From Opitutia bacterium (GTDB taxonomy: Bacteria; Verrucomicrobiota; Verrucomicrobiae; Opitutales; Opitutaceae), in the NCBI GenBank assembly GCA_947442255.1, contig CANEVO010000003.1, forward strand, positions 1 to 64,000: 64,000 bases of DNA, in the 5' to 3' direction. The translations under genes were made by a program, and so were the position numbers. Shown here piece by piece: positions 24,674 to 37,093 of the stretch; position 1 is the stretch's first letter, and each line of letters begins with the position of its first letter. The notes under the pieces were generated by a model that did not search any database, was not told where the DNA came from, and worked only from the letters and a program-made list of their open reading frames with translations.

Positions 24674-25483
24674 TTACCTGGGGCTCTCGCCGGCTTCAAA
24701 CGGACTGCTCTTCGCGGAGAAAATCACTTTCCCAAACCGATGCGGCGTATGAAAGGCGGGAACGTCGGTGTCGGCTCGTGACCACTGGCTGTACTGAAAA
24801 TTCGTCTTCCCACCGTGGCGGTTCAGATTCAAATTCATGACGGTGCCGGGGCGCGGCGGAATCTCCTTCGCCACTTTGGAAAAGTTTTTCAACGGAATCG
24901 CCAATTCGACGATCCAGTATTGGTCGGTGTCACTGTCGTCATTCAACGTGCCCACGTAGGAGCCGGCGATCTGCACCCCCTCGGCGTCCCACTTCGGCGC
25001 CCTGGGCTTGTCCGGACCATTGGGGCGAAAATTATCGAGGATTCCTCCGAGCAGGTTGAATTCCACGTTGAAATAGATGTTCGGAGTATCCGCGTTTGGC
25101 GCGATCATCACCTCGACACAATCATCCTCGGGAATTTTGCCGTCCCGCTCCGTGTGCCGGGCGGTAATGTGGGCGTCCTGACAGACGACCGCCACGTACA
25201 GATTTTCGTCGTCCCACAACATCTTTGCGCGGGTCTGCTCTTTTTTTCCCTCTTTCCACCAGGTGAACGTGAAATCACTGAAATGAGGTGCGGCGAACCA
25301 CGCCGCCTCATCGATTTTACCGTCGACCTTGATCGGCGTTCCAGCCCGATAGATCGTATATTCGGGCGGCCGCCACAGCGCTGCGCCCGCGGGAGCGGCG
25401 GCATGCGAGGAAGCGGCGAATGAGACGGCAACGACGAGGAAGGCAATCCGCCGAAGGAGGGGAAAAAACGGGAGAGCTGGCAT
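24674..25483 (-). CDS. Exported carbohydrate-binding family 9-like protein
   Basis: A 269-residue protein with a signal peptide (about residues 1-28: basic start, FPLLRRIAFLVVAVSFAASS, then AHAAAP). The rest is one CBM9-like beta-sandwich: IKVDGKIDEAAWFAAPHFSD, LWDDENLYVAVVCQDAHI and the acidic DDCVEVMIAPN stretch are the usual signature. CBM9 domains bind sugar ends. Here no catalytic domain is attached, so it may be a periplasmic binding or accessory protein. It is divergent from the first amidohydrolase gene, with 302 bases between, which places it at the edge of the oxidative island. Confidence 0.85.
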   Translation of the reverse strand: MPALPFFPLLRRIAFLVVAVSFAASSHAAAPAGAALWRPPEYTIYRAGTPIKVDGKIDEAAWFAAPHFSDFTFTWWKEGKKEQTRAKMLWDDENLYVAVVCQDAHITARHTERDGKIPEDDCVEVMIAPNADTPNIYFNVEFNLLGGILDNFRPNGPDKPRAPKWDAEGVQIAGSYVGTLNDDSDTDQYWIVELAIPLKNFSKVAKEIPPRPGTVMNLNLNRHGGKTNFQYSQWSRADTDVPAFHTPHRFGKVIFSAKSSPFEAGESPR

Positions 25484-25785
25484 GATGGGTTGGGAGTTGG
25501 ATTAACGATACAAGAGCCTGACACCGTCGAGCTCAAGCCCACGGCAGGGAGCTTTCAAGGCTGATGCGCCGACGATTCGACGGGGTGAGCACGCCGGGCT
25601 GCGCGAGGGAAATCAACCTCATCCCTCCCGATCGATCCACGTTCCACACGCCACCCGGCGCCACCACCGGTCAGTGGGAAAGAAGCTTTGTCTTCAAATT
25701 TTCCGGCCGTGACGCTGCAGGAAACCGGAGGATTCAAGCCTGCCTACACCGGCGGGTAATTTTCGCCGCCGGTCGCCCCGCCACC
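25484..25785. other. Divergent intergenic region
   Basis: About 300 bases between the CBM9-like gene (minus) and the first amidohydrolase (plus). It should contain both promoters. The plus frame is open from 25564, but the upstream 74 residues have no similarity to the paralogous protein at 36.2-37.1 kb, so I take it as noncoding. I could not identify a convincing -35/-10 pair. Confidence 0.4.
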
Positions 25786-26736
25786 ATGAATCCGCGTGAG
25801 TTTTTCATCAACGCATCCAACTACGGCCTACCCACGCGGGACGAACTCGTGGCCTACCGGATCTGGGACACTCACTTTCACGGCTTTCTCAACGGGCTGG
25901 ATGAAAATCCAATTCCGTTCTACGAACAAAACCAGTTCTACGTCGAGCGCACGGGAATCGAGCGCTCCATCGCGGTGGATATCGGGCGGAACACGTCGTG
26001 GCCCGTGATTCGGGCCGGAGCCGGACAGGAAGAGTTGGCGCGATTGGACCGGGAAAGCACCACCGCCCTAGTGCCTTATGAAGTTGAGCTGCGCCGGGTC
26101 CTGGAGCGGGACAGGGATCGCCTTTCCGCCCTGGCTCGAATCGACGCCCGCTTCCCAGAGGGCAGCTGCGCCAGGATGGAAAAATGGATCAAGCACGGCC
26201 CCTGCATCGGCATCAAATACGAAGCGGGCAATTCCCAGGGGATCACGTGCGACCACCCCAACAGCGACCCGATCATCCGGTTCGGCGCGGAACTTAACGC
26301 GACGATTTACATCCACACGTGGCTCAAGGTCGGCGGGACGCCCCACCTGCCCGGCGGCGGCAACGATCCAGGCGAATGTACGCCGATGCACGTGGCCAAA
26401 CTAGCCCGGCGGTTTCCCGATGTACAGATGATCTGCGGCCATTCTGGTGGCGATTGGGAACTGGGCATTCGCGCGATCCGGCCCTTTAAGAATGTTCTCC
26501 TGGAGTTTGCCGGCACGGATTCCCACTCCGGCAGCGTCGACCACGCCGTGGCGGAATTGGGTGTCGATCGGATCGTCTGGGGCGGACACGGCCCCAGTCG
26601 CAGCTACGCGACCGAGCTTGGGAAGGTGCTGAACGCCGATCTTTCGCCGAGCGACCGCGTGAAGATATTCGGCGGCAATTTCCGCCGATACGCCGCCTCG
26701 ATCTTTCGTCAGAAGGGCATTAAAATCGAAGTTTGA
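25786..26736 (+). CDS. Amidohydrolase-2 family protein, paralog A
   Basis: A 316-residue TIM-barrel hydrolase of the amidohydrolase-2 (COG2159) type, start MNPREFFINASNYGLPTRDE. Ligand-like residues: H-x-H in DTHFHGF near residue 29, His in ATIYIHTWLK, His in QMICGHSGGDWE. The strand-8 position, where the family usually has GSD, reads VWGGHGPSRS, so the catalytic Asp is not in its normal place. Members act on lactones, decarboxylate acids or hydrolyse C-O bonds; the substrate cannot be told. There is no signal peptide, so it is cytoplasmic. The gene at 36207-37093 is a close paralog. The next gene, 39 bases on, is a second, distant amidohydrolase. Confidence 0.87.
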   Translation: MNPREFFINASNYGLPTRDELVAYRIWDTHFHGFLNGLDENPIPFYEQNQFYVERTGIERSIAVDIGRNTSWPVIRAGAGQEELARLDRESTTALVPYEVELRRVLERDRDRLSALARIDARFPEGSCARMEKWIKHGPCIGIKYEAGNSQGITCDHPNSDPIIRFGAELNATIYIHTWLKVGGTPHLPGGGNDPGECTPMHVAKLARRFPDVQMICGHSGGDWELGIRAIRPFKNVLLEFAGTDSHSGSVDHAVAELGVDRIVWGGHGPSRSYATELGKVLNADLSPSDRVKIFGGNFRRYAASIFRQKGIKIEV

Positions 26737-26775
26737 TCACGTCTGCAACGGTGCCTTAGCCTCTTCCCTACCTCC

Positions 26776-27738
26776 ATGAATCCCATCGACCGTCGCAGCT
26801 TTCTTAAAGCCTCCGTGCTCACCGCCGCCGCCCTTTCAATTCCGGCCGAACAACAAGCCGCTCAAGGCGCCGCGCGTGCGGCGAAGGCTTCCCCGGCGAC
26901 GGCAACCGGGATCGTGGATACCAACGTCAATCTTTTCAGCTGGGCATTCCGCAAACTGAAGTACAGCGACACCAAGGCCCTGGTCCAAAAGCTCAGAAAG
27001 CATAACATCATCGAGGCGTGGGCCGGCAATTTCGAAGCGCTGCTCCACAAGGATATGGATGGCGTCAACTCCCGCCTCGCCACGGAATGCCGGGAACATG
27101 GCGAAGGACTGCTGGTTCCATTTGGCAGCACCAATCTCGCCTGGCCGGACTGGGAGGAGGATGTACGGCGCTGTCACGAAGTTCACAAGATGCCGGGAAT
27201 CCGGATCTATCCCGGTTATCAACCTTTCGATCTCAGTCATCCCGGAATGGAGACGTTGGTGAAAATAACGTCGGAACGAGGTTTGATTCTGCAGGTGGTT
27301 TTCGGCATGGAGGATCCCCGCGTTTACCACCCGATCATTCGCGTCGGCAACGTCAGTGCCGGACCGCTGTTGAAGGTGCTGAAGGGTGCGCCCAACGCGA
27401 AAGTCCAGTTGGTCCATTTCAGCGGCTCGATTCGGGGCGAGGACCTCCACCAGTTTATGACGCAGACCAGCGCCGTGATGGACATCTCGCGGTTCGAAGG
27501 TAACGGCGCGGTCGGCAGAATGATTGGGGCCGCCCCGGGGATGACCTCGACCACGCTGGCGACCGGCTCCGGATCGAACGCTGCTCGCGCACCGGTCGAG
27601 CGAATCGTTTTCGGTTCGCACGCGCCCTATTTTCCCGTCGAGACGGCACTGTTGAAACTGATCGAGTCCCCGCTCGACGAGAAACAACTGCACGCCATCA
27701 TGCAGGGCAACGCCCGGCGGTTGCTGCCCCGGGCCTGA
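26776..27738 (+). CDS. Amidohydrolase family protein with Tat-type leader
   Basis: A 320-residue protein starting with a twin-arginine leader (DRRSFLKASVLTAAALSIPA), followed by a TIM-barrel of the amidohydrolase-2 family. The first-strand motif reads VDTNVNLFSW where most members have D-x-H-x-H. The other ligands also differ: VQLVHFSGS and FGSHAPYFP (GSH for GSD). This N-x-N form belongs to a subfamily I know from Planctomycetes and Verrucomicrobia. The metal site, and hence the reaction, is uncertain. The Tat leader implies export with a folded cofactor or metal, unlike its neighbour upstream, which lacks one. It starts 39 bases after paralog A and is probably cotranscribed with it. Confidence 0.83.
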   Translation: MNPIDRRSFLKASVLTAAALSIPAEQQAAQGAARAAKASPATATGIVDTNVNLFSWAFRKLKYSDTKALVQKLRKHNIIEAWAGNFEALLHKDMDGVNSRLATECREHGEGLLVPFGSTNLAWPDWEEDVRRCHEVHKMPGIRIYPGYQPFDLSHPGMETLVKITSERGLILQVVFGMEDPRVYHPIIRVGNVSAGPLLKVLKGAPNAKVQLVHFSGSIRGEDLHQFMTQTSAVMDISRFEGNGAVGRMIGAAPGMTSTTLATGSGSNAARAPVERIVFGSHAPYFPVETALLKLIESPLDEKQLHAIMQGNARRLLPRA

Positions 27739-27751
27739 TTCCGCGATTGGC

Positions 27752-27779
27752 CGTCAGGCCGTGCGACTGCGGCCTGACG
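27752..27779 (+). terminator. Hairpin after the Tat amidohydrolase gene
   Basis: A 10-bp perfect stem CGTCAGGCCG/CGGCCTGACG with an 8-base loop, 14 bases beyond the stop codon. No T-run follows, so its strength is uncertain. Confidence 0.5.
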
Positions 27780-27792
27780 CCAGCAGGAGTCC

Positions 27793-27821
27793 AAAAGCAG
27801 GGCGCCGGCATGCCGGCGCCC
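27793..27821 (-). terminator. Palindromic terminator of the propeller-cytochrome gene
   Basis: The 22-base palindrome GGGCGCCGGCA/TGCCGGCGCCC (27800-27821) begins six bases beyond the minus-strand stop. On that strand it is followed by CTGCTTTTGG, a short T-run. It separates two converging genes and could act both ways. Confidence 0.6.
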
Positions 27822-27826
27822 GAGGA

Positions 27827-29974
27827 TTACGGTCGGGCGGTTTGAGGGCCAAACGTTTTGCGCACGTAGGCGAGTACGTCGTGCAAGGCCTGCGGCGGCA
27901 AAACGTTTCCGAAAGCCGGCATTTGGTTTTTACCCGCCATGATCACCGCCAGCAGGTCAGAGTCGGGCCGGCTGAGCGGGCCAGTGGGAAGCGTGTAATC
28001 GGGCGTGCCGACCTGCTTCGATCCTTTGCCATCGGGCTGGTGGCAGACCATGCAATTCAACTTATAAATCTGTTCGCCACGGCGCGGATCCGCCGGCTGA
28101 AGTTTGACGGCCTTGGCGATCAGCGTCGTCGGAGCCACAACGGTACCCGGGAGCAGGCGGTTGGCCGTGTAGTAAGCCACCGGATTCAACAGCGGGCGCC
28201 CCTTCGTGCTGGCGAGCGGAGCGATCACTTCAATTTCGTAAATGAAGTCTGGCTGCATTTCCTGCAGTTCCAATTCCACGGTCCGCTGATCCTCGCGCAG
28301 TCTCGATGATTTGATGGGAACATCGACTTCGTCCCGCCGCAACGAGCCATCCTGGATGTGGTAGTTGTAGCGGAAGCGCCGGACACGATAGTTGTCACTC
28401 TTGCCCGTGGTGGTCGCCATCGGCTCGGTGAAGGTCAGGGCGAACCCGGGGGTGGCCAGACGCAGGTGCAGAATATCGACTGGGTTTTCACCGGTCCAAA
28501 CAATCCGCTGGATTCCTTCGCCGCCCTCGGTGGACATCCATCCCCGTACCGTCTCGGCAATATAAAGCGCGCCGTCAGGTCCGAAGGCATTGTGCATTCC
28601 GCCGATGCCCAACCCCTGCCCGCGCACGAAGGGAAACGCTGCGCCCTGATAGACTCCCTCGACCTTCTCCAAGTCGACGCGCATCACGAGATTCGTCACG
28701 TCACCAATAAACATCTGACCGGCATAAGGCCCGAATTTTCCGCCCGTGGTGTCCCAAACCGGTTGCCCCGGCGAGCCACCCATCAAGCCGCGCGGAAGGT
28801 AAACCGTGGGCGGCCGGCGCATCTTGACGAGCATGTCATACGTCACCGGCTTGTCCCGGAAATCCGGATGCCATTTCAACCCGTCGGGGTGCCCGTAGAA
28901 GGAACCCGCCTCAATGTGGTGGAGCAGTGAAGTCGGCACCCAGGCTCCGGAAACATCCGTAACGAAAAGCTCATCCTGCGGGCTCACGCCCACGCCCAGC
29001 GGTTGCCGCAAACCGGTCGCCAGCGGCACGAAGGCGCCATCGCGATTTACGCGAAATGCCCAACCTTGATATTGGGCTACCGAGCGATGCGGATCCGCGG
29101 GGATCTTGCCGTTTGGCAGCGGCACCACGAGGGCCTCCTTCAACGGACCACGCACCCAGGGAAAATCCCCGGCCGAAGCCATTCCGAATCCACCGTAGAG
29201 GTTTCCGGCGCGATCGCGGGCGAGACCATAAGAAAATTCATGGTAGTTTCCCGTAATGCCCCACCCGTCCGCCACCGTCTCGTAACGGTCCGCCACGCCG
29301 TCTCCGTTCGTGTCGGCGAGCCGGGTGATTTCCGGCCGCTGCAGCACGAGCACTTCGGAATCACTGGGCGCGACGACGCCGAATCCTTCGTAGAGACCTG
29401 ATGCAAATCGCCGCCACTGCCCGGAGACGGCGGCGCGGATCCAGACTTCGCCCCGCCGGTTGGTCATCACCAAGTTGCCGCCCGGCGAAAAGGCGACGGC
29501 GGAAACCTCCGGGATCATCTGCTGGGGCAAATCGACCGTCTCCACCCGATACGCATAGGGCTTTGCCGCCGACCGCAACTCGATATCCCGCACCACGGGC
29601 TGATCCACCGTGAGCTCAACATTCAGTTTGAGGTCTTCAAACCCCGAAGCGATCACCCAAAGATCGTAGGGTCCGGGAGGAGCATCGAACTGAAAGGCTC
29701 CGTCGGCCCCGGATTTCTTCTGCATCTGGCTGTTCTCGACCGCCGCGAGGCCGGGGCCCTCCAATTTCAACTGGGCGTTGGCCACCGGCTGACCGTTCCC
29801 GGCGGCACGAAGGATCCCTGAAATCCGCCCTTGCGGTCCCGCTCCCGCCCCGCGCTTCGGCGCCTGGGAGTAGCCTTCAGGTGCCGTTAAAAAAACTGCC
29901 GCCAGCGCGAGGCTGATCCCCGCCAGACGAGCGCAGCCGACGAAACGAAAAAAAACAAGTGATGCGTGTCTCAT
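27827..29974 (-). CDS. Exported beta-propeller dehydrogenase-like protein with cytochrome c domain
   Basis: A 715-residue protein. A signal peptide covers about residues 1-36. A CnaB/carboxypeptidase-regulatory-like beta-sandwich follows (about 48-135: ISGILRAAGNGQPVANAQLK). Then comes a beta-propeller of the sorbosone/PQQ-dehydrogenase-like kind (VSAVAFSPGGNLVMTNRRGE, then LADTNGDGVADRYETVADGW, GMHNAFGPDGALYIAE). The C-terminus has a cytochrome c domain with NCMVCHQ (CxxCH, about 640-645) and a distal Met (NQMPAFGN). This suggests oxidation of a sugar or alcohol in the periplasm with electrons passed to heme c. PQQ dependence is not shown. It is followed at 29986 upstream by the ThuA-like gene with an 11-base gap, so both form an operon. 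Confidence 0.87.
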   Translation of the reverse strand: MRHASLVFFRFVGCARLAGISLALAAVFLTAPEGYSQAPKRGAGAGPQGRISGILRAAGNGQPVANAQLKLEGPGLAAVENSQMQKKSGADGAFQFDAPPGPYDLWVIASGFEDLKLNVELTVDQPVVRDIELRSAAKPYAYRVETVDLPQQMIPEVSAVAFSPGGNLVMTNRRGEVWIRAAVSGQWRRFASGLYEGFGVVAPSDSEVLVLQRPEITRLADTNGDGVADRYETVADGWGITGNYHEFSYGLARDRAGNLYGGFGMASAGDFPWVRGPLKEALVVPLPNGKIPADPHRSVAQYQGWAFRVNRDGAFVPLATGLRQPLGVGVSPQDELFVTDVSGAWVPTSLLHHIEAGSFYGHPDGLKWHPDFRDKPVTYDMLVKMRRPPTVYLPRGLMGGSPGQPVWDTTGGKFGPYAGQMFIGDVTNLVMRVDLEKVEGVYQGAAFPFVRGQGLGIGGMHNAFGPDGALYIAETVRGWMSTEGGEGIQRIVWTGENPVDILHLRLATPGFALTFTEPMATTTGKSDNYRVRRFRYNYHIQDGSLRRDEVDVPIKSSRLREDQRTVELELQEMQPDFIYEIEVIAPLASTKGRPLLNPVAYYTANRLLPGTVVAPTTLIAKAVKLQPADPRRGEQIYKLNCMVCHQPDGKGSKQVGTPDYTLPTGPLSRPDSDLLAVIMAGKNQMPAFGNVLPPQALHDVLAYVRKTFGPQTARP

Positions 29975-29985
29975 GGTGCGCGCTG

Positions 29986-31293
29986 TTATTTCTGCCGAAT
30001 TTCAATGGTGAACTCACCGGCCCCGGTTCCCGTATAGCCCATCCGGGACCCATCCTGCTCCAGTCCCTTTGCCGTAATCTCCGCTCCCGGTTGCGGGTCG
30101 GACTTGTACCACAGCGGTTGTGTCCCGGGACCGACGTGAAATTTTCGAATAATTCCCATGCCCGATGCCAAGGGCAGCGTCTCTTCGCGAATTTCGCGGT
30201 CGCCGACCCGGTAAAAAAGTTCCGGATACCGGCCCACCACACTGTATCCCTTGAAATGGAAGGCCGGCTCGCGACCGTCCGCCGTCATCCAAAATAAACC
30301 GCGCGACGTGTCGCGGTAGAAAATTTCCCCGCTCAAGCGGGCCGGTTCGCCCCGCTTGGTGATCCAGCGCGGGCGCAAATCGACGAAGTCGCCGTCGCTC
30401 ATGTGGCTGATGCCACCGCGGACCGGATCGAAAGCAAAGGTGGGGCCACCCGGCATCGTCACGGCAAGGGTGCCAGGATAAGACTCGGGCAGATACGTGC
30501 GCTGCACATAGGCCCGCGCGTCGGGTATCGGCCGCTGCACGGTCCATAGCACACTGTTGGCCAGCATCCGGACGTAACCTTCCTGCCGGAACAGCTCGGG
30601 GCCCGCCGGCACGATGTGGACGATGCGGGCGTTTTGCCACCGCCGCAGCCAGCCCAAGGGGGCCGTCGATTCACCCACGGTGCCTTCGATCGTCATCAAG
30701 GCGTCGCTGGCCAGATCTGCATACAGCGGCATCTCCTGGGAGGTTTCGAGTTTGGTCAAACCGGTGAAAATCGCGTGGGGAAAAAGATTGATGACCCGCA
30801 TCGGCGCGCCGCTGGCAACGGCGCCCTGACGCTTCGCCCCCAGGACGTCGGGCGTGAAGGTGGGCCATGCACTCCAGCGCTCCGTCGCCGCGCGGATGAC
30901 GACCAGTCCCTTGCCCGCGCCGAGAAACTCCCGCAGGATGGCCGCGTCCCCGCGGCTCAGGTCGCCACTGCCGCCGTACAACACGGCCGCATTGGCGGTC
31001 CGCAACTCGGCGAGCGCTGGCATGGTCGCCCCGCCAGCGGGAGGAGCCACTAGGACGACGGATACGCCGGCGTTTTTCTCCAAGGCGAGTTTCAACGCCA
31101 TGAGGCTCTTTCCCGCCTCCACCGCGGCCGGTTCGGCACCCGCGATTAACGCCACCCGCAGCGGTTTGCTTTCGGCGGCCCCACCCGAGGCAGGGCCCAA
31201 GCCCAAGCCTGCGATCAACGCAAACCACCGAAACTGAAACCAAAAACACCCTCGACGCCGGCCCGTGCGGCGCTCGTTCGTTAGTTCATTCAT
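29986..31293 (-). CDS. Exported ThuA-like protein
   Basis: A 435-residue protein. The N-terminus is basic, then hydrophobic (FQFRWFALIAGLGLGPASGG), which fits a signal peptide or anchor. The body is a ThuA-like (trehalose utilisation, class I glutamine-amidotransferase-fold) domain: RVALIAGAEPAAVEAGKSLM, AVLYGGSGDLSRGDAAILREFL, KGLVVIRAATERWSAWPTF. A beta-rich C-terminal part (about 270-435: FHFKGYSVVGRYPELFYRVG) resembles the DUF1080-like or galactose-mutarotase-like domains seen in PVC bacteria. ThuA-like proteins act on 3-keto-sugars in known examples, but no reaction can be assigned here. The gene lies in an operon with the propeller-cytochrome gene. Confidence 0.78.
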   Translation of the reverse strand: MNELTNERRTGRRRGCFWFQFRWFALIAGLGLGPASGGAAESKPLRVALIAGAEPAAVEAGKSLMALKLALEKNAGVSVVLVAPPAGGATMPALAELRTANAAVLYGGSGDLSRGDAAILREFLGAGKGLVVIRAATERWSAWPTFTPDVLGAKRQGAVASGAPMRVINLFPHAIFTGLTKLETSQEMPLYADLASDALMTIEGTVGESTAPLGWLRRWQNARIVHIVPAGPELFRQEGYVRMLANSVLWTVQRPIPDARAYVQRTYLPESYPGTLAVTMPGGPTFAFDPVRGGISHMSDGDFVDLRPRWITKRGEPARLSGEIFYRDTSRGLFWMTADGREPAFHFKGYSVVGRYPELFYRVGDREIREETLPLASGMGIIRKFHVGPGTQPLWYKSDPQPGAEITAKGLEQDGSRMGYTGTGAGEFTIEIRQK

Positions 31294-31682
31294 GGAATTT
31301 GAGAATCTGAAAGCACCTCGATGCTTTCCGAGCGGAGCGTGGTCGGCAATCCGGCAAAAGCAGACATAAGTATAAACGTGAGTGAGTTATTATCTATCGT
31401 TCCACCGGCCTGCCGGCTCGGATACGGGCAACTGCAAGCCTCGATGCCAACCCGGAGTTTCTGAAGTGAAATGATACTGGTCGCAACGAATTCGCAGTCT
31501 ATCGCTGAGCATGCAAATTTGATGGTCAAGCGCGACCGCCGGATCAAACCATCTCAGTGGAAAGGGCTCGTCCCCATGGCGATGGCGTGAAAGCAAACGC
31601 AAAGCCTGACAATGGCGGAGGGCTCCGACCGCAAATCAGCCGGACCCTCTCCCGTGGCGATCAAAACGCGGGCCCACACCGC
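31294..31682. other. Intergenic region, AT-richer
   Basis: About 390 bases between the PVC-type heme gene and the ThuA-like gene, both minus strand. The short reading frames here show no similarity. It includes an AT-richer stretch (31361-31400) with TATACT on the minus strand at 31369-31374 that could be a -10 element for the ThuA operon. No matching -35 was found, so this is not listed as a promoter. Confidence 0.4.
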
Positions 31683-34600
31683 TTACTTCTTCAAAGCGGC
31701 CAGCTCGGCATCCGACCACGATTTCTGCCGGTCCGCTGTTACCGCCCGAATCTCCGCCACCTTGGCCGGTGTCACCATGCCAGTTTTGTTGCCGAACTCA
31801 CGTCGAACGTAGGTGATCGCCGCGGCAATCTGATTGTCGTCGAGATGCTTCAGCGAGGGCATGACCAGGCGGCTGCCCGGGTTTTCCTTACCGTTCAAAA
31901 CGATGCGCACCATCGGCACCTCTCCCTCCTGTACCCAAGGCGAGGCGATGAGCGACGGCGCAAGCGCGATCAATCCCTGTCCGCTCTCCTGATGGCAGGC
32001 CGAGCAGTTCAAGGCGTAGGCCGTCTTACCCTGCTCGAACAGCTGCTGCGCCAGGCGTTCGGTCGGATCGTCCAACTTGCTTTGCTGATATTTGGTCAGC
32101 AAGGAATCGATTTGCTGATTCTTGTGAGCGCGTACCGCCGTTATATTGGACGAACTCAGGACGCCCGGATTGAAGCTTCCTTGGTTTACGCGCTGCAGCA
32201 TGACCAGCGCCCAAGCCGGCTTCTCGCTCAGCATGCGCTGGGCGACGATCTGCAGGCGCGGCCCCAGGTTCGGGTAGACTTCAATGAGCACGTCGGCGGC
32301 GGCCGGCGTGTTGAAGCCATTGATCGTATCCAGCAATTTCCTCCGGCGTTGCTCGTTTTTATCGGTCCGCAAGAGCTCGGAGACCACGGGCAGCGCCTCC
32401 GCCGACCCGGTGGAGGCAAAGAGATCGAGGAGCTCCTGCTGGCCCGCGGCGTTCAACGTCCCGCTCTTCACCATCGCCACGGCTTCCGCCATCGCGGCGG
32501 AGTTGCCGAGCCGCGCGGCCAGGGTCACCAACGGAGCCGTGTGCGGACGGCTCGACCAGTACTGGGCGACGATCTCCTTCAAATTCTGGGGAATGAGATC
32601 GACCGTGCCGCCGGCGAGGCCCGCCGCCATGCCCGCGACGACGAGATTGCTATCCGCATCCGACGGCGCCGCGAGCAGCACCCGGGCACAGGTCTCCAGG
32701 TTCCGGCGCAGATGAGGCGCCCAGCGATCGATCAGCCAGCCCGAGTACACGCCTTGATTCAGCGTATAATACTTGTTCGGGCCCTGATCGGCCGTGTAGC
32801 GCATGCCAATGCGTTCGGCGATATACTTGGAGAAAATCTTCGTCTTCCAAACGGCCGGATCGCGGACGAGCGTCATGAGCTCCTCGCGTCCGGTATCGAG
32901 TTTGTTTTCGATCGCCCACCAGAGCAGCAGCGGAATGTGCCGGTCGGCCACGTCCTCGTCATGATTCAGCAGCTCCCGGATGATCGGAAACGCTTGGCCG
33001 GCGGGCAACCGTTTGGCGCTGCTGGCCAGCTGGCTGCGGACCTCCACAGCGGGTTCCGATTTCGCCAGCGCGACCAGGGCCACTTGGCCCTCGGCATTTA
33101 CGTTGTTCTGATCGCCCAAAAGGCGGACCGACCAGCGGCGCACCTGCTCGTTCGGATGCCGGAGCGTCTGGAGCAGTTGCTTGTTATCCAATTCGCCCCG
33201 CAGATTCAAAACCCACAGCGCCTCCAGCGATCCCTCGTCGTTCTTCGCCAGCATCGCATTGAGCGTCGGGGCGATCGGCTCGGGCCGGTGGGCCAGCAAC
33301 TGGCGGGCGGTCTCACGATACCACCGATTGCGATGCGTCAGCATCGTGATCAGGGCCGGCGTCGAGGCCTTCCGCAGGTCGATCGCTGCGGGCCGCACAT
33401 AATCCTTCGGCGTGATGCGGAAGATACGGCCCGTCGACTTGTCCCACGTGTCCCGGGGATTGAGATGGCTCAGGCGCACGTCGTACCAGTCGGCAATATA
33501 GATGCAGCCGTCCGGGCCCGATTCGATGTCCACCGGACGGAACGCCCGGTCATCCGCCGTGATCAACGCCTCGCGATCGACGGTGCGAAACGTCGAGGTG
33601 TCCTTGAAAACCTCGCTGGCCTGAACGCGGTTCGTCAGCGCCATGCCGACGACCATTTGACCTTCGAGCTTGGGCATGAGGCCGCCCTCGTAAAAAATGA
33701 AGTTCTGCGGGAATCGCTGCGAGTACCCCTGATGCCCCATGTGTTCGAAGAATCCAAAAATGAACGGGTTCATCGCCGGGCCATGCTTGGTCCAACCCTT
33801 GATGTAGGTGGCCCCCTGAGCGTAGTGCAGGCCGCGCGTGGCACCGCCGTTGGTGCCGGAGTAAGCCCGGCCGTATTTGTCGAACTCGAAGCTGACCGTG
33901 TTGCCTCCGCCCTCGGCAAAAACCTCAAATACTTTGGTCCCGGGATGGTATCGCCAGATCCCCTGGCCGAGCAGCCGGACCCCTTGGATCTCCAGATTAG
34001 TGGTGCTGCCTTTCGCGCCGTACAGCCACCCGTCGGGGCCCATGTGCAGGCTGCTTGCGAGCGAGTGCGTATCTTCCAGGCCAAATCCCACGAGATGCAC
34101 TTCCGGGTCACCGTCAGGGATGTCGTCGCCGTTCCGGTCGCGGTAAAAAAGCAAATAGGGCGGTTGCAGCACCCAGACGCCACCATCGCCAAATTCAACA
34201 CTGGTCGCCATGTTCAACCCCTCGACAAAGGTCTTGTGCGTCTCGTATTTGCCGTCGCCATCCTTATCTTCGAGAATCGTGATCTTGTCGGCGCCCCGAA
34301 AATGATTGGGTGGCGGCGGAGAAATACGGTCAAATTCCGCTCGCAGGTATTGATCGTAGGCGGTGACGGTGAGTCCGGCTGGAAAGGGATACTGCAGATA
34401 CTGCACCACCCAAAGTCGCCCCCGAGCATCGAACTTCATGTCGATGGGCTGCCGGATAACCGGTTCGTTGGCCGTTAGCTCGACTGCATAACCCTCGGCC
34501 GGGTGCAGCCGTTTCAAACTTTCCGTCGGCGCGAGCGGCGTGATCTCCTTCGCCAGATCCTGACCGCCCGGCTTGAAGTTTTCCACGAAGCCCTCGATCT

Positions 34601-34709
34601 CGGGCGTGAATCGCGGGCGCTCGGCTATCTGCGAAAAACCGGCGGAAAAACAGCTGATGAAGAGGCCGGTCGACAGGGCGAAGGTAGACGGTAACGTACG
34701 GGGATTCAT
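31683..34709 (-). CDS. PVC-type heme-binding CxxCH protein (propeller, HEAT repeats, cytochrome c)
   Basis: A 1008-residue exported protein of a kind that is almost restricted to Planctomycetes and Verrucomicrobia. Signal peptide about 1-26 (TFALSTGLFISCFSAGFS). The N-terminal propeller (about 50-440) has VIRQPIDMKFDARGRLWVVQ and EDKDGDGKYETHKTFVEGL, GPDGWLYGAKGS and DIESGPDGCIYIADWYD. A run of HEAT-like helices follows (about 450-850). A cytochrome c domain carries NCSACHQ near residue 900, and YVRREFGNKTG is near the end. The family is expected to oxidise a carbohydrate and pass electrons to a respiratory chain, but biochemical evidence for any member is thin. The gene is the likely head of a minus-strand group with the ThuA-like and propeller-cytochrome genes. 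Confidence 0.9.
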   Translation of the reverse strand: MNPRTLPSTFALSTGLFISCFSAGFSQIAERPRFTPEIEGFVENFKPGGQDLAKEITPLAPTESLKRLHPAEGYAVELTANEPVIRQPIDMKFDARGRLWVVQYLQYPFPAGLTVTAYDQYLRAEFDRISPPPPNHFRGADKITILEDKDGDGKYETHKTFVEGLNMATSVEFGDGGVWVLQPPYLLFYRDRNGDDIPDGDPEVHLVGFGLEDTHSLASSLHMGPDGWLYGAKGSTTNLEIQGVRLLGQGIWRYHPGTKVFEVFAEGGGNTVSFEFDKYGRAYSGTNGGATRGLHYAQGATYIKGWTKHGPAMNPFIFGFFEHMGHQGYSQRFPQNFIFYEGGLMPKLEGQMVVGMALTNRVQASEVFKDTSTFRTVDREALITADDRAFRPVDIESGPDGCIYIADWYDVRLSHLNPRDTWDKSTGRIFRITPKDYVRPAAIDLRKASTPALITMLTHRNRWYRETARQLLAHRPEPIAPTLNAMLAKNDEGSLEALWVLNLRGELDNKQLLQTLRHPNEQVRRWSVRLLGDQNNVNAEGQVALVALAKSEPAVEVRSQLASSAKRLPAGQAFPIIRELLNHDEDVADRHIPLLLWWAIENKLDTGREELMTLVRDPAVWKTKIFSKYIAERIGMRYTADQGPNKYYTLNQGVYSGWLIDRWAPHLRRNLETCARVLLAAPSDADSNLVVAGMAAGLAGGTVDLIPQNLKEIVAQYWSSRPHTAPLVTLAARLGNSAAMAEAVAMVKSGTLNAAGQQELLDLFASTGSAEALPVVSELLRTDKNEQRRRKLLDTINGFNTPAAADVLIEVYPNLGPRLQIVAQRMLSEKPAWALVMLQRVNQGSFNPGVLSSSNITAVRAHKNQQIDSLLTKYQQSKLDDPTERLAQQLFEQGKTAYALNCSACHQESGQGLIALAPSLIASPWVQEGEVPMVRIVLNGKENPGSRLVMPSLKHLDDNQIAAAITYVRREFGNKTGMVTPAKVAEIRAVTADRQKSWSDAELAALKK

Positions 34710-35012
34710 GGGTTCAACGTGAAGGATCGGGGAGGCAACTTAGTCAGGACAGTTACGCCGGACGAATGCAGCCGGCACCGACGAACCGCCGTAAACTTCA
34801 CTGCGGACTGCCCTGAGCAAGGAAAAAGCGCCCGCACTTTCGGGTGATGAAGGCCATCAAACCAGTTCGGGGAAAGCTCTCGCACGCGGTGGCGGCGGCC
34901 GGCGACCGCGCGCCGCCTGCGGACGAAACGTCGTGCGCGCCGGTCCGGCCGAATTCGCTGAAAACGCTCGCCCCGCAGACTCGATCAATTGTATTCCTGC
35001 GCCCTTTGTCGC
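34710..35012. other. Divergent intergenic region
   Basis: About 300 bases between the PVC heme gene (minus) and the hydroxyacid dehydrogenase gene (plus). It should carry both promoters. I found no convincing elements or repeats. Confidence 0.35.
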
Positions 35013-35957
35013 ATGAAAATCTACGTTGGATTCGAGGTCCGGGCACAGGAAGCGGAGGCGTTCAGACGGCTCACTGCCGCCGATGACGTCTGGATCGCCA
35101 ATCCCGCTGGAGCCACGGCGGCGGATCGCGCGGCGTTTCTCGAGGCCGAAATCGTGTTCGGCGCCTTCCCCACGGACCTGCTGGTCGCCGCCACGCGCCT
35201 GCGCTGGGTCCAGTTTTCCTCTGTCGGCATCGATTTCCATCGCAATGCCGAATGGGCCAAAGTGGCCGGCCGCGTCGTCTGCACCAATCTGCGCGGCGCC
35301 TTCGCCGAATGCATGGCGCAGACGGTGCTAGGCGCCATTCTGAGCTTCAACCGGGGCCTCGATCAGTTTGTCCGCCTGCAGGAACGGCGCGACTGGCAAA
35401 AAGACTATTACCATCCTCGCCTACACATCCTGCAGGGAGCCCACGTGTTGTTGCTGGGCAACGGATCCGTGACGACCCGGGTCCGGGAACTGCTCGCCCA
35501 GTTCGGCTGCACCTTCACCGTCTACGCCCGGACTTCGGGCGACATCCGTTCGGGGGCCGAGCTCGACGCGGCGCTCCCGAAGGCGGACATCGTTTGTGCC
35601 GCCCTGCCCGATACGCCCGAAACCCGGGGCCTCATGAGCGCCGACCGGATCGCCCGATTCAAACCCGGCGCACTTTTTGCGAATGTCGGACGCGGATCCC
35701 TGGTGGACGAGGCGGCCCTGATCGAGGTTCTGCGCTCCGGCCAGCTGCGGGGGGCCATGCTCGACGTCACCCGCAACGAACCGCTGCCACCCGACGATCC
35801 GCTCTGGTCCTGCCCCCGTACGCTTCTCACGCAGCATACCTCGGCCGGTTCGGAATTGGAGTTCATCGATGCGATCAAGTACTTCGGCGAAAACCTCGCC
35901 CGCTATCGCAGCGGCCAGCCGCTGCAAAACGTGATCGACTGGTCGAAGGGTTATTGA
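35013..35957 (+). CDS. D-2-hydroxyacid dehydrogenase family protein
   Basis: A 314-residue NAD-linked oxidoreductase of the D-isomer hydroxyacid dehydrogenase family. The catalytic Arg is in NVGRGSLVDEAAL, the acidic residue in LDVTRNEPLPPDDPLW and the His in LLTQHTSAGS. The dinucleotide loop reads VLLLGNGSVTTRVREL, so the third Gly of GxGxxG is replaced by Thr, as in some GhrA-like members. Reduction of a 2-keto acid or oxidation of a 2-hydroxy acid is expected; the substrate is unknown. ATG 35013 opens MKIYVGFEV, a typical start. The amidohydrolase paralog C follows about 250 bases on. Confidence 0.88.
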   Translation: MKIYVGFEVRAQEAEAFRRLTAADDVWIANPAGATAADRAAFLEAEIVFGAFPTDLLVAATRLRWVQFSSVGIDFHRNAEWAKVAGRVVCTNLRGAFAECMAQTVLGAILSFNRGLDQFVRLQERRDWQKDYYHPRLHILQGAHVLLLGNGSVTTRVRELLAQFGCTFTVYARTSGDIRSGAELDAALPKADIVCAALPDTPETRGLMSADRIARFKPGALFANVGRGSLVDEAALIEVLRSGQLRGAMLDVTRNEPLPPDDPLWSCPRTLLTQHTSAGSELEFIDAIKYFGENLARYRSGQPLQNVIDWSKGY

Positions 35958-36206
35958 ATTCCGCCGGGAATCGAACTAGGAAAACGACTCTCCCCGCCCG
36001 CCGTGCCGCCGGCGGATTCGCCTTAAATTGCCGGGCCGGGAAAGCCGCGGGCCTCCGGGCAGTTTGTCCTTCAACCGTGCCCCGGAGAAGAGCCTTGCCT
36101 TCACCGGAGGGCCTTCGAACGCTCAACGTTCGAGCGTGAAGAGGGATTGTATCCAGCCTGGATATCCACGCTATCACCGCCTCGCTCCGAAAACTCCGAA
36201 AGACTT

Positions 36207-37093
36207 ATGCCCCGCGGGAATTCTTCATCAACGGCAATGACTATGGACTTCCCACGCGCGACGAGCTCGTGGCCTACCGGATCTGGGACAGCCATTTTCA
36301 TGGATTCTATGGTTCGCCGAGCCCGATCCAGCAGTACGAAGAAAATATGTTCTACGTGCGGCGGATGGGAATCGAACGCTCCGTTTCCCTCGAAATCGGC
36401 GGCACGCTGGACACGCCGCTGACTCCCTCGCCGCACGAGGCGGAGATCCTCGCGATCGTCGAACGGGACAAGGCGCACCTTTCCGGTATCACTCCCATCC
36501 ATCCCGGCTTTCCCGACGAAAGCTGTGCCAAAATGGAAAAATTGATCCGCAACGGCCCGTGCATTGGCATCAAATACGTCGGCGGCAACTCGACGGGCAC
36601 AACCTGCGATCATCCCAACAACGACCCGATCATCCGTCTGGCCGCCGACCTGAATGCCACCATTTACATCCACACTTGGTTGAAGGCCGGTGGCACGCCC
36701 AATCTGCCGGGGCGAAACAACATGCCGGGCGAAAACACGCCGATGCAAGTGGCGATCCTCGCCCAGCGCTTTCCGAACGTGCAGATGATCTGCGGCCACT
36801 CGGGTGGAGATTGGGAATTGGGCACACGCGCCATCCGACCCTACAAGAATGTCTCGCTCGAATTCGCCGGCTCGGATCCGCACTCCGGCATGGTGGAATA
36901 CGCGATCCGTCAGCTGGGCGTCGATCGGCTGGTCTGGGGCGGGCACGGTCCGAGCCGCAGTTATGCGACCGAAATCGGCAAGGTTTTGGACACCGATATC
37001 TCCCGCGCCGACCGCATGAAGATTTTCGGCGGGAATTTCCGGAAATATGCCGCAGCCATCTTCCGGAAAAAGGGCCTCAAGATCGACGTCTGA
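36207..37093 (+). CDS. Amidohydrolase-2 family protein, paralog C (start disturbed)
   Basis: Close relative of paralog A at 25786-26736. The stretches PREFFIN, YGLPTRDELVAYRIWD, NATIYIHTWLK, QMICGHSGGDWELG and VWGGHGPSRSYATE are shared and most of the C-terminal half is identical by eye. It lacks an 18-residue insert of A near residue 80. The conserved frame has no ATG, GTG or TTG upstream of the PREFFIN region; the first usable start is GTG 36269, which would cut off the H-x-H strand approach. An ATG at 36207, one base out of frame, gives M-x-PREFF if one base were restored, exactly as in A. So the gene probably lost one base after its start codon, or this is a sequence error. Same strand-8 GGHGP as A. 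Confidence 0.78.

Follow-up and report, generated by a model that had tools for sequence, protein, structure and literature searches.

What unites the eight genes lying together at positions 24674-37093 of an Opitutia contig (CANEVO010000003.1)? They stand in a window of 64,000 nucleotides, the whole stretch of DNA analysed here, and the original prediction took them for an undescribed periplasmic module of carbohydrate oxidation. All eight reading frames were confirmed (frames and Pfam). Three of the encoded proteins are central to the question: PropCyt2, a propeller protein ending in a cytochrome c domain, and the pair AmA and AmTat, two proteins of the amidohydrolase fold, the second of which bears a twin-arginine translocation (Tat) leader. 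The gene set is real and recurrent, and it is apparently an undescribed variant of periplasmic sugar oxidation, the biochemistry of which we infer. The whole explanation, a modular periplasmic system that oxidises a sugar or a sugar-derived molecule, is given about an even chance. Its direct support consists of recurrent neighbourhoods, a predicted fold, a heme motif, an exchange of electron carriers, gene pairing, signal swapping and a fusion of AmA with AmTat. By analogy, the system may resemble quinohemoprotein sugar oxidation and Tat hitchhiker enzymes in its mode of action. The term "undescribed" refers to open-licence papers, in which neither this gene set nor the AmA/AmTat pair was found. 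The same literature yielded no paper on ThuA with PVC-type heme-binding proteins, none on 3-keto, ThuA and amidohydrolase genes together, and none using the names DUF7133, DUF6797 or related ones.

PropCyt2 (positions 27827-29974, minus strand; 715 aa) is composed of an N-terminal domain, a six-bladed propeller at about residues 139-494 and a C-terminal class I cytochrome c. The best structural matches of the predicted propeller are pyrroloquinoline quinone (PQQ)-type sugar dehydrogenases, namely sGDH, the aldose sugar dehydrogenase Asd and the AA12 pyranose dehydrogenase, with a clear gap in their favour; the predicted fold is thus a six-bladed propeller of the sGDH/Asd/AA12 type. The electron carrier attached to it has been swapped: cytochrome c in the window is replaced by plastocyanin in relatives from Bacteroidota and Balneolota. 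An exchangeable electron carrier points to a dehydrogenase, and the redox role that had been proposed for the propeller-cytochrome is backed by fold and carrier swap alike. The papers cited here are represented by excerpts; in that of PMC6881789, the AA12 enzyme CcPDH also possesses its own electron-transfer domain. Compared with these dehydrogenases, PropCyt2 and its relatives carry heme c or plastocyanin rather than heme b, have an extra N-terminal domain and show weak sequence similarity, and no PQQ synthesis was found in the tested genomes that carry the genes.

Is the propeller then a PQQ enzyme? The alternative is that it uses another cofactor, or serves purely as an electron relay or scaffold, and this is a serious possibility although its chances are placed clearly below even. 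Three residues speak for PQQ, in addition to the structural gap. His245, Arg323 and Arg490 occupy motif-equivalent places and are invariant in 51 aligned relatives; in 21 more diverse relatives His245 is invariant and the two arginines are nearly so, with Lys for Arg323 in locus L042 (loci and genomes of the comparison are numbered L and G). The PQQ and catalytic residues were placed by motif order and by a profile alignment to E. coli YliI, and the weakness of that alignment (E 0.036) is the first of several points that weigh against the oxidation system proposed here. The propeller of the window has no match to Pfam GSDH (its relatives in L034 and L082 score 31.4, over the cut-off, and 17.9, below it). 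PqqE exceeded its cut-off in none of 20 carrier genomes, in a search without positive control as none of 14 control genomes passed either, and PqqD did so in only one of the 20. CxxCH is absent from a distant propeller paralogue of an Opitutae genome (L090, G001), for which no search for a carrier was made. In most aligned rows Gln or Ser takes the place of the Asn beside the PQQ-binding Arg, which also favours another cofactor. In a search of Protein Data Bank sequences for the PQQ residues, most of the hits were NHL repeats and designed Pizza propellers. Missing synthesis genes are compatible with a PQQ enzyme if the cofactor is scavenged, as the excerpt of PMC6881789 reports for E. coli.

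The second propeller-cytochrome is a PVC-type protein of 1008 aa (31683-34709, minus strand) with a DUF7133 propeller (214.9 bits), HEAT repeats and a C-terminal cytochrome c. The claim of two such proteins was borne out by the 715-aa protein, with its CxxCH at residue 641, and by the larger one, whose cytochrome c domain spans residues 891-968. Pfam finds Cytochrome_CBB3 and a weak DUF7133 in the former, and DUF7133, HEAT_2 and Cytochrome_CBB3 in the latter. Only the 1008-aa protein qualifies as a PVC-type CxxCH protein of TIGR02604 (234.5 against a curated cut-off of 122.2); the 715-aa protein remains below it (55.4). One near-full-length relative of the larger protein, above 1400 bits (63-78%), occurs in each of five of 17 carrier genomes, and in four of those five it shares a contig with an AmA pair. 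We know of no function assigned to PVC-type cytochromes, DUF7133 or DUF6797, and Pfam lists both DUF families as unknown.

Do these genes belong together in other genomes? The search for the AmA family, with contigs taken from one genome per species, gave 71 loci. Seven propeller copies were found in six of them, against 0.8 expected if propellers were as dense there as in 17 carrier genomes, which were chosen so as to include the positive loci; the propeller was the only family testable by such a background comparison. In a sample of 150 genomes drawn from the family of G004 (AmA at E <= 1e-30, propeller at E <= 1e-100, at most seven candidates scored per genome), AmA was present in eight genomes and a propeller match in 32, seven of which were AmA carriers. 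Propeller matches that include the N-terminal domain were confined to four genomes, all of them among the eight carriers. With the centre genome excluded, AmA carriers made up 3/3 of the genomes with such propellers, compared with 7/149 (p = 6.5e-5).

Smaller sets of the eight genes recur in order. AmTat, AmA, CBM9, propeller and ThuA genes stand in a row in L084 and L092, and L093 has CBM9, propeller, ThuA and PVC cytochrome genes, the last three in the order of the window. CBM9 also accompanies propeller and ThuA in L082 and L085, and the CBM9 relatives beside propeller/ThuA in these five loci are 65-79% identical to that of the window. A relative of the hydroxyacid dehydrogenase (68%) lies beside propeller/ThuA in L083. 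The CBM9 and hydroxyacid dehydrogenase genes look like optional members. Propeller and ThuA genes adjoin in L072-L076; in L082, L083, L084, L087 and L088 the two predicted frames share 4 bases. The C-terminal half of the ThuA-like protein matches partner proteins of relatives bearing DUF6797; Pfam finds no DUF6797 in the ThuA-like protein of the window itself. The co-occurrence foreseen by the original prediction therefore stands for subsets of the genes, and the absence of repeated neighbours that would have spoken against it was not found, but no second locus with all eight genes was found among the loci compared. That negative belongs with the points against the proposed system, as does the distant type of AmA and AmTat in L084 and L092 (33-39% identity to those of the window).

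The pair and the cytochrome group may instead be common parts of polysaccharide-use regions, rich in sulfatase, TonB and DUF1501 genes, rather than steps of one pathway. This is rather unlikely, though it has the breadth of the pair on its side: in the stretch fetched, a propeller relative is missing from 65 of the 71 AmA loci. The same count weighs against the oxidation system, since the pair, with a propeller in only six loci, extends beyond the module. Genes for sulfatases, TonB receptors, SusD, an esterase-like family and DegT aminotransferases are repeatedly found near AmA/AmTat, together with DUF1501 and PSD1 genes. The 3-keto-disaccharide hydrolases of PF06439 reach 374 matches in 91.9 Mb, or 4 per Mb, in 14 carrier genomes. 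Against mere neighbourhood stand the excess of propeller copies, the confinement of N-terminal-domain propellers to AmA carriers (4/4) and adjacency in G004 and G060.

The same neighbours bear on the substrate of the proposed oxidation system. The carbohydrate link is upheld by the sulfatase and TonB/SusD genes that recur and by isolated examples, namely two GFO_IDH_MocA oxidoreductases near the L092 cluster and a PF06439 hydrolase that L042 encodes between its AmA and propeller genes; alone, the latter is weak evidence because of the density of its family. These genes point to a carbohydrate, perhaps a keto-sugar, as the substrate class. ThuA/3-keto-sugar enzymes are similar in their ThuA domain and through the L042 hydrolase, but differ in that no GFO_IDH_MocA oxidoreductase is among the eight genes. 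In the excerpt of PMC5615132, planctomycete-specific cytochromes of freshwater Verrucomicrobia stand beside sulfatases and carbohydrate-binding domains and are proposed to act on sugars. Those clusters contain PSCyt/PSD domains, whereas Pfam finds none of them (PF07583, PF07587, PF07635) among the eight proteins here; PSCyt/PSD domains do neighbour AmA in some Opitutae loci. Three side observations concern the same neighbourhoods. A match to a 3-keto-disaccharide hydrolase lies 2.6-2.7 kb from each of three more distant propeller paralogues (G003:C325, G060:C112, G108:C103). One cluster of DegT-type aminotransferases, matched to Pfam on its L044 copy, occurs near AmTat/AmA in L034, L035, L038, L044, L053 and L060 (Bacteroidota, Verrucomicrobia and Singulisphaera) and hints at an amino-sugar or cyclitol branch. 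Nitrilase-type carbon-nitrogen hydrolase genes, also of one cluster (Pfam match on the L038 copy), lie near the pair in L037, L038 and L059.

What is the role of the pair? AmA (25786-26736, plus strand; no signal, with a further ATG in frame at 25564) is followed by AmTat (26776-27738, plus strand), whose Tat leader (RRSFLK) is plain by eye although the Pfam TAT_signal score is just below its cut-off (21.4 against 22.7 bits). Three amidohydrolases had been claimed; Amidohydro_2 is indeed matched by three of the eight proteins (58.5 bits, 42.5 for AmTat and 38.7 for AmB), but they are better read as one two-subunit enzyme and a lone paralogue, AmB. In 65/71 loci AmTat lies on the same strand as AmA, at most 0.65 kb away. 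Of the exceptions, L023 has the two genes 3 kb apart, L028 and L055 yielded no AmTat, and in L039, L063 and L071 AmA lies at a contig end. Cultured bacteria with the pair include Cyclobacterium qasimii, in which the propeller is present too, Fodinibius roseus and Singulisphaera acidiphila. Among the sources of the loci are Verrucomicrobia/Opitutae, Planctomycetota, Acidobacteria, Bacteroidota, Balneolota and one Hydrogenedentota; from about L048 onward they are distant, mostly at 32-42% identity, and the closest AmA relative with an organism name is from a metagenome-assembled genome (MAG) of Verrucomicrobiota (77%). Many AmA copies, several with their own AmTat, were observed on separate contigs of the verrucomicrobial MAG JACQWL (L018, L028, L030, L031, L044, L046, L047).

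The export signal changes sides within the pair. Among 99 non-redundant pairs from 112 source sequences (identical-AmA stretches removed, stretches below 330 bases not paired), an automatic rule assigned 52 a Tat-like signal on AmTat only and 15 one on AmA only; both partners carry it in two pairs and neither does in 28, and two pairs are truncated. Exactly one partner thus carries the signal in 67/97 classifiable pairs under this lenient rule, the distribution expected of a Tat hitchhiker. Independence of the two signals was rejected (Fisher one-sided p = 6e-5, a guide only as the pairs are related), and a tree yields 7 and 6 changes. Some assignments are doubtful, and the counts were left unchanged: the L092 AmTat was counted as having none despite a visible TRRDFLTTATALAAATT stretch, the AmTat of L130 and the AmA of the second L035 pair are doubtful positives, and the L111 AmA was scored on a wrong stretch with a better one downstream. 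The 28 pairs without any signal count against co-export, as does the leniency of the rule, which 111/373 other locus genes passed (55 pass a stricter, differently written motif). Applied to the pairs, the stricter motif gave a signal on both partners only once. In G347 and G404 a single frame, 644 codons from stop to stop, joins a Tat-like leader to the domains of AmTat and AmA, the latter having lost its HxH; this may be one event because the two genomes are closely related.

Signal swapping and fusion suggest that AmA and AmTat are co-exported as a heteromer, and the fusion is indirect support for a complex formed before export. In Burkholderia, the Tat signal on one subunit of an FAD glucose dehydrogenase takes a hitchhiker partner to the periplasm, and electrons pass to heme c (PMC6719666, excerpt). 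That enzyme is a flavoprotein of unrelated subunits, whereas both partners here belong to PF04909 and the signal changes sides. Could AmTat instead act in the periplasm and AmA in the cytoplasm, on an imported product? The leader on AmTat only, as in the window and its near relatives, would suit such a division, but the 15 pairs with a leader on AmA and none on AmTat, the 28 with neither and the fused Tat-AmTat-AmA frames make it improbable.

Within the proposed heteromer the two active sites differ. AmA of the window has an HxH (H32/H34), then H179 and H221, while at the beta-8 position it carries His270 instead of Asp; compared with the ligand set of mononuclear PF04909 hydrolases and decarboxylases, HxH and two His are kept. 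Across 73 AmA and 71 AmTat sequences, short or interrupted copies being excluded, HxH is conserved in 72/73 AmA and each of the two later His in 73/73. The beta-8 position is His in 50/73 (the near clade) and Asp in 23/73 (the distant clade), a possible change of chemistry. AmTat of the window has NxN for HxH; Asn holds the first HxH place in 60/71 AmTat, the Asp is kept and so, mostly, is a GSHxP motif (His in 58/71). With HxH gone, it is unlikely that AmTat works as a conventional metal hydrolase. A Protein Data Bank sequence search with AmA gave nothing significant, and direct identity with a lactonase is without support, known PF04909 lactonases not being among the 50 structural matches listed, which does not in itself exclude it.

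A two-subunit precedent is the AibH1H2 monooxygenase, which is made of two paralogous PF04909 subunits, one of them catalytic (PMC10401708, PMC7782822, PMC10811679, excerpts), and differs from the present pair in its metal ligands; in the pair, moreover, a Tat signal is frequent on one of the subunits. That AmA/AmTat is an O2-activating dinuclear oxygenase of this heteromeric kind, an idea raised by a structural match, is very improbable and was rejected, as only about two of the six AibH2 ligands (D25, H27, H211, E265, D337 and H340; PMC7782822) are matched by motif order, AmA having H/H, H, H and H/D for D, H, H, E, D and H with His at carboxylate places, and no Rieske gene is among the eight although the figure for an adjoining small Rieske protein is 90% in PMC10401708.

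The remaining genes complete the layout. A CBM9-like protein of 269 aa with a Sec-type leader (24674-25483, minus strand) was confirmed by Pfam CBM9_2 and CBM9_1 (59.6 and 53.4 bits). The exported ThuA-like protein (29986-31293, minus strand) is marginally over the gathering cut-off (34.0 against 33.4 bits), and the D-2-hydroxyacid dehydrogenase (34989-35957, plus strand), in which no leader was seen, matches 2-Hacid_dh_C at 146.5 bits. AmB (36269-37093, plus strand) lacks an AmTat partner, one more point against the proposed system. In the region 36140-36280 its homology starts at 36212, ahead of GTG 36269, the first standard start codon, and no ATG, GTG or TTG start covers the conserved N-terminus; it may have an unusual start or be a decaying gene. 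The tight spacing noted earlier follows from the coordinates (39 bases at 26737-26775, 11 at 29975-29985). The eight genes are all present and were mostly named correctly, but they lie on both strands in four blocks, CBM9 (minus), AmA and AmTat (plus), PropCyt2, ThuA-like and PVC-type (minus), and hydroxyacid dehydrogenase and AmB (plus), and therefore do not form one operon. A sugar transferase and a CoA_binding_3 protein are encoded on one flank, an ABC-2 membrane protein and an Mfd-type helicase on the opposite one, and the island may have been inserted into an otherwise ordinary region.

How might the parts act together? The CBM9 protein would help to hold the substrate, and the sugar-dehydrogenase-like propeller-cytochromes would oxidise it, a keto-sugar or lactone being the probable product. 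The heme c that these proteins themselves contain would hand the electrons on to the respiratory chain. AmA and AmTat would leave the cytoplasm through Tat as a single folded heteromer, in which AmA would bind the metal and AmTat would serve as carrier or helper, and would then convert what the propellers have oxidised, perhaps aided by the ThuA-like protein. The hydroxyacid dehydrogenase would finish a small acid in the cytoplasm. Substrate, cofactor, physical complex and reaction order are the conjectural parts of this scheme.

More broadly, and tentatively, a two-subunit Tat-exported enzyme of the amidohydrolase fold, whose signal has moved between the subunits several times and one subunit of which has lost the metal site, together with a propeller dehydrogenase of interchangeable carrier (heme c or blue copper), may constitute a mobile route of periplasmic sugar oxidation in at least Verrucomicrobia, Bacteroidota and Balneolota, the pair alone reaching Planctomycetota and Acidobacteria. 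The side-changing signal and the fusion of AmA with AmTat yield a clear prediction of co-export. For PVC-type cytochromes, DUF7133 and DUF6797, the locus provides a testable role, that of a sugar dehydrogenase with an exchangeable carrier, and also a defined partner enzyme.

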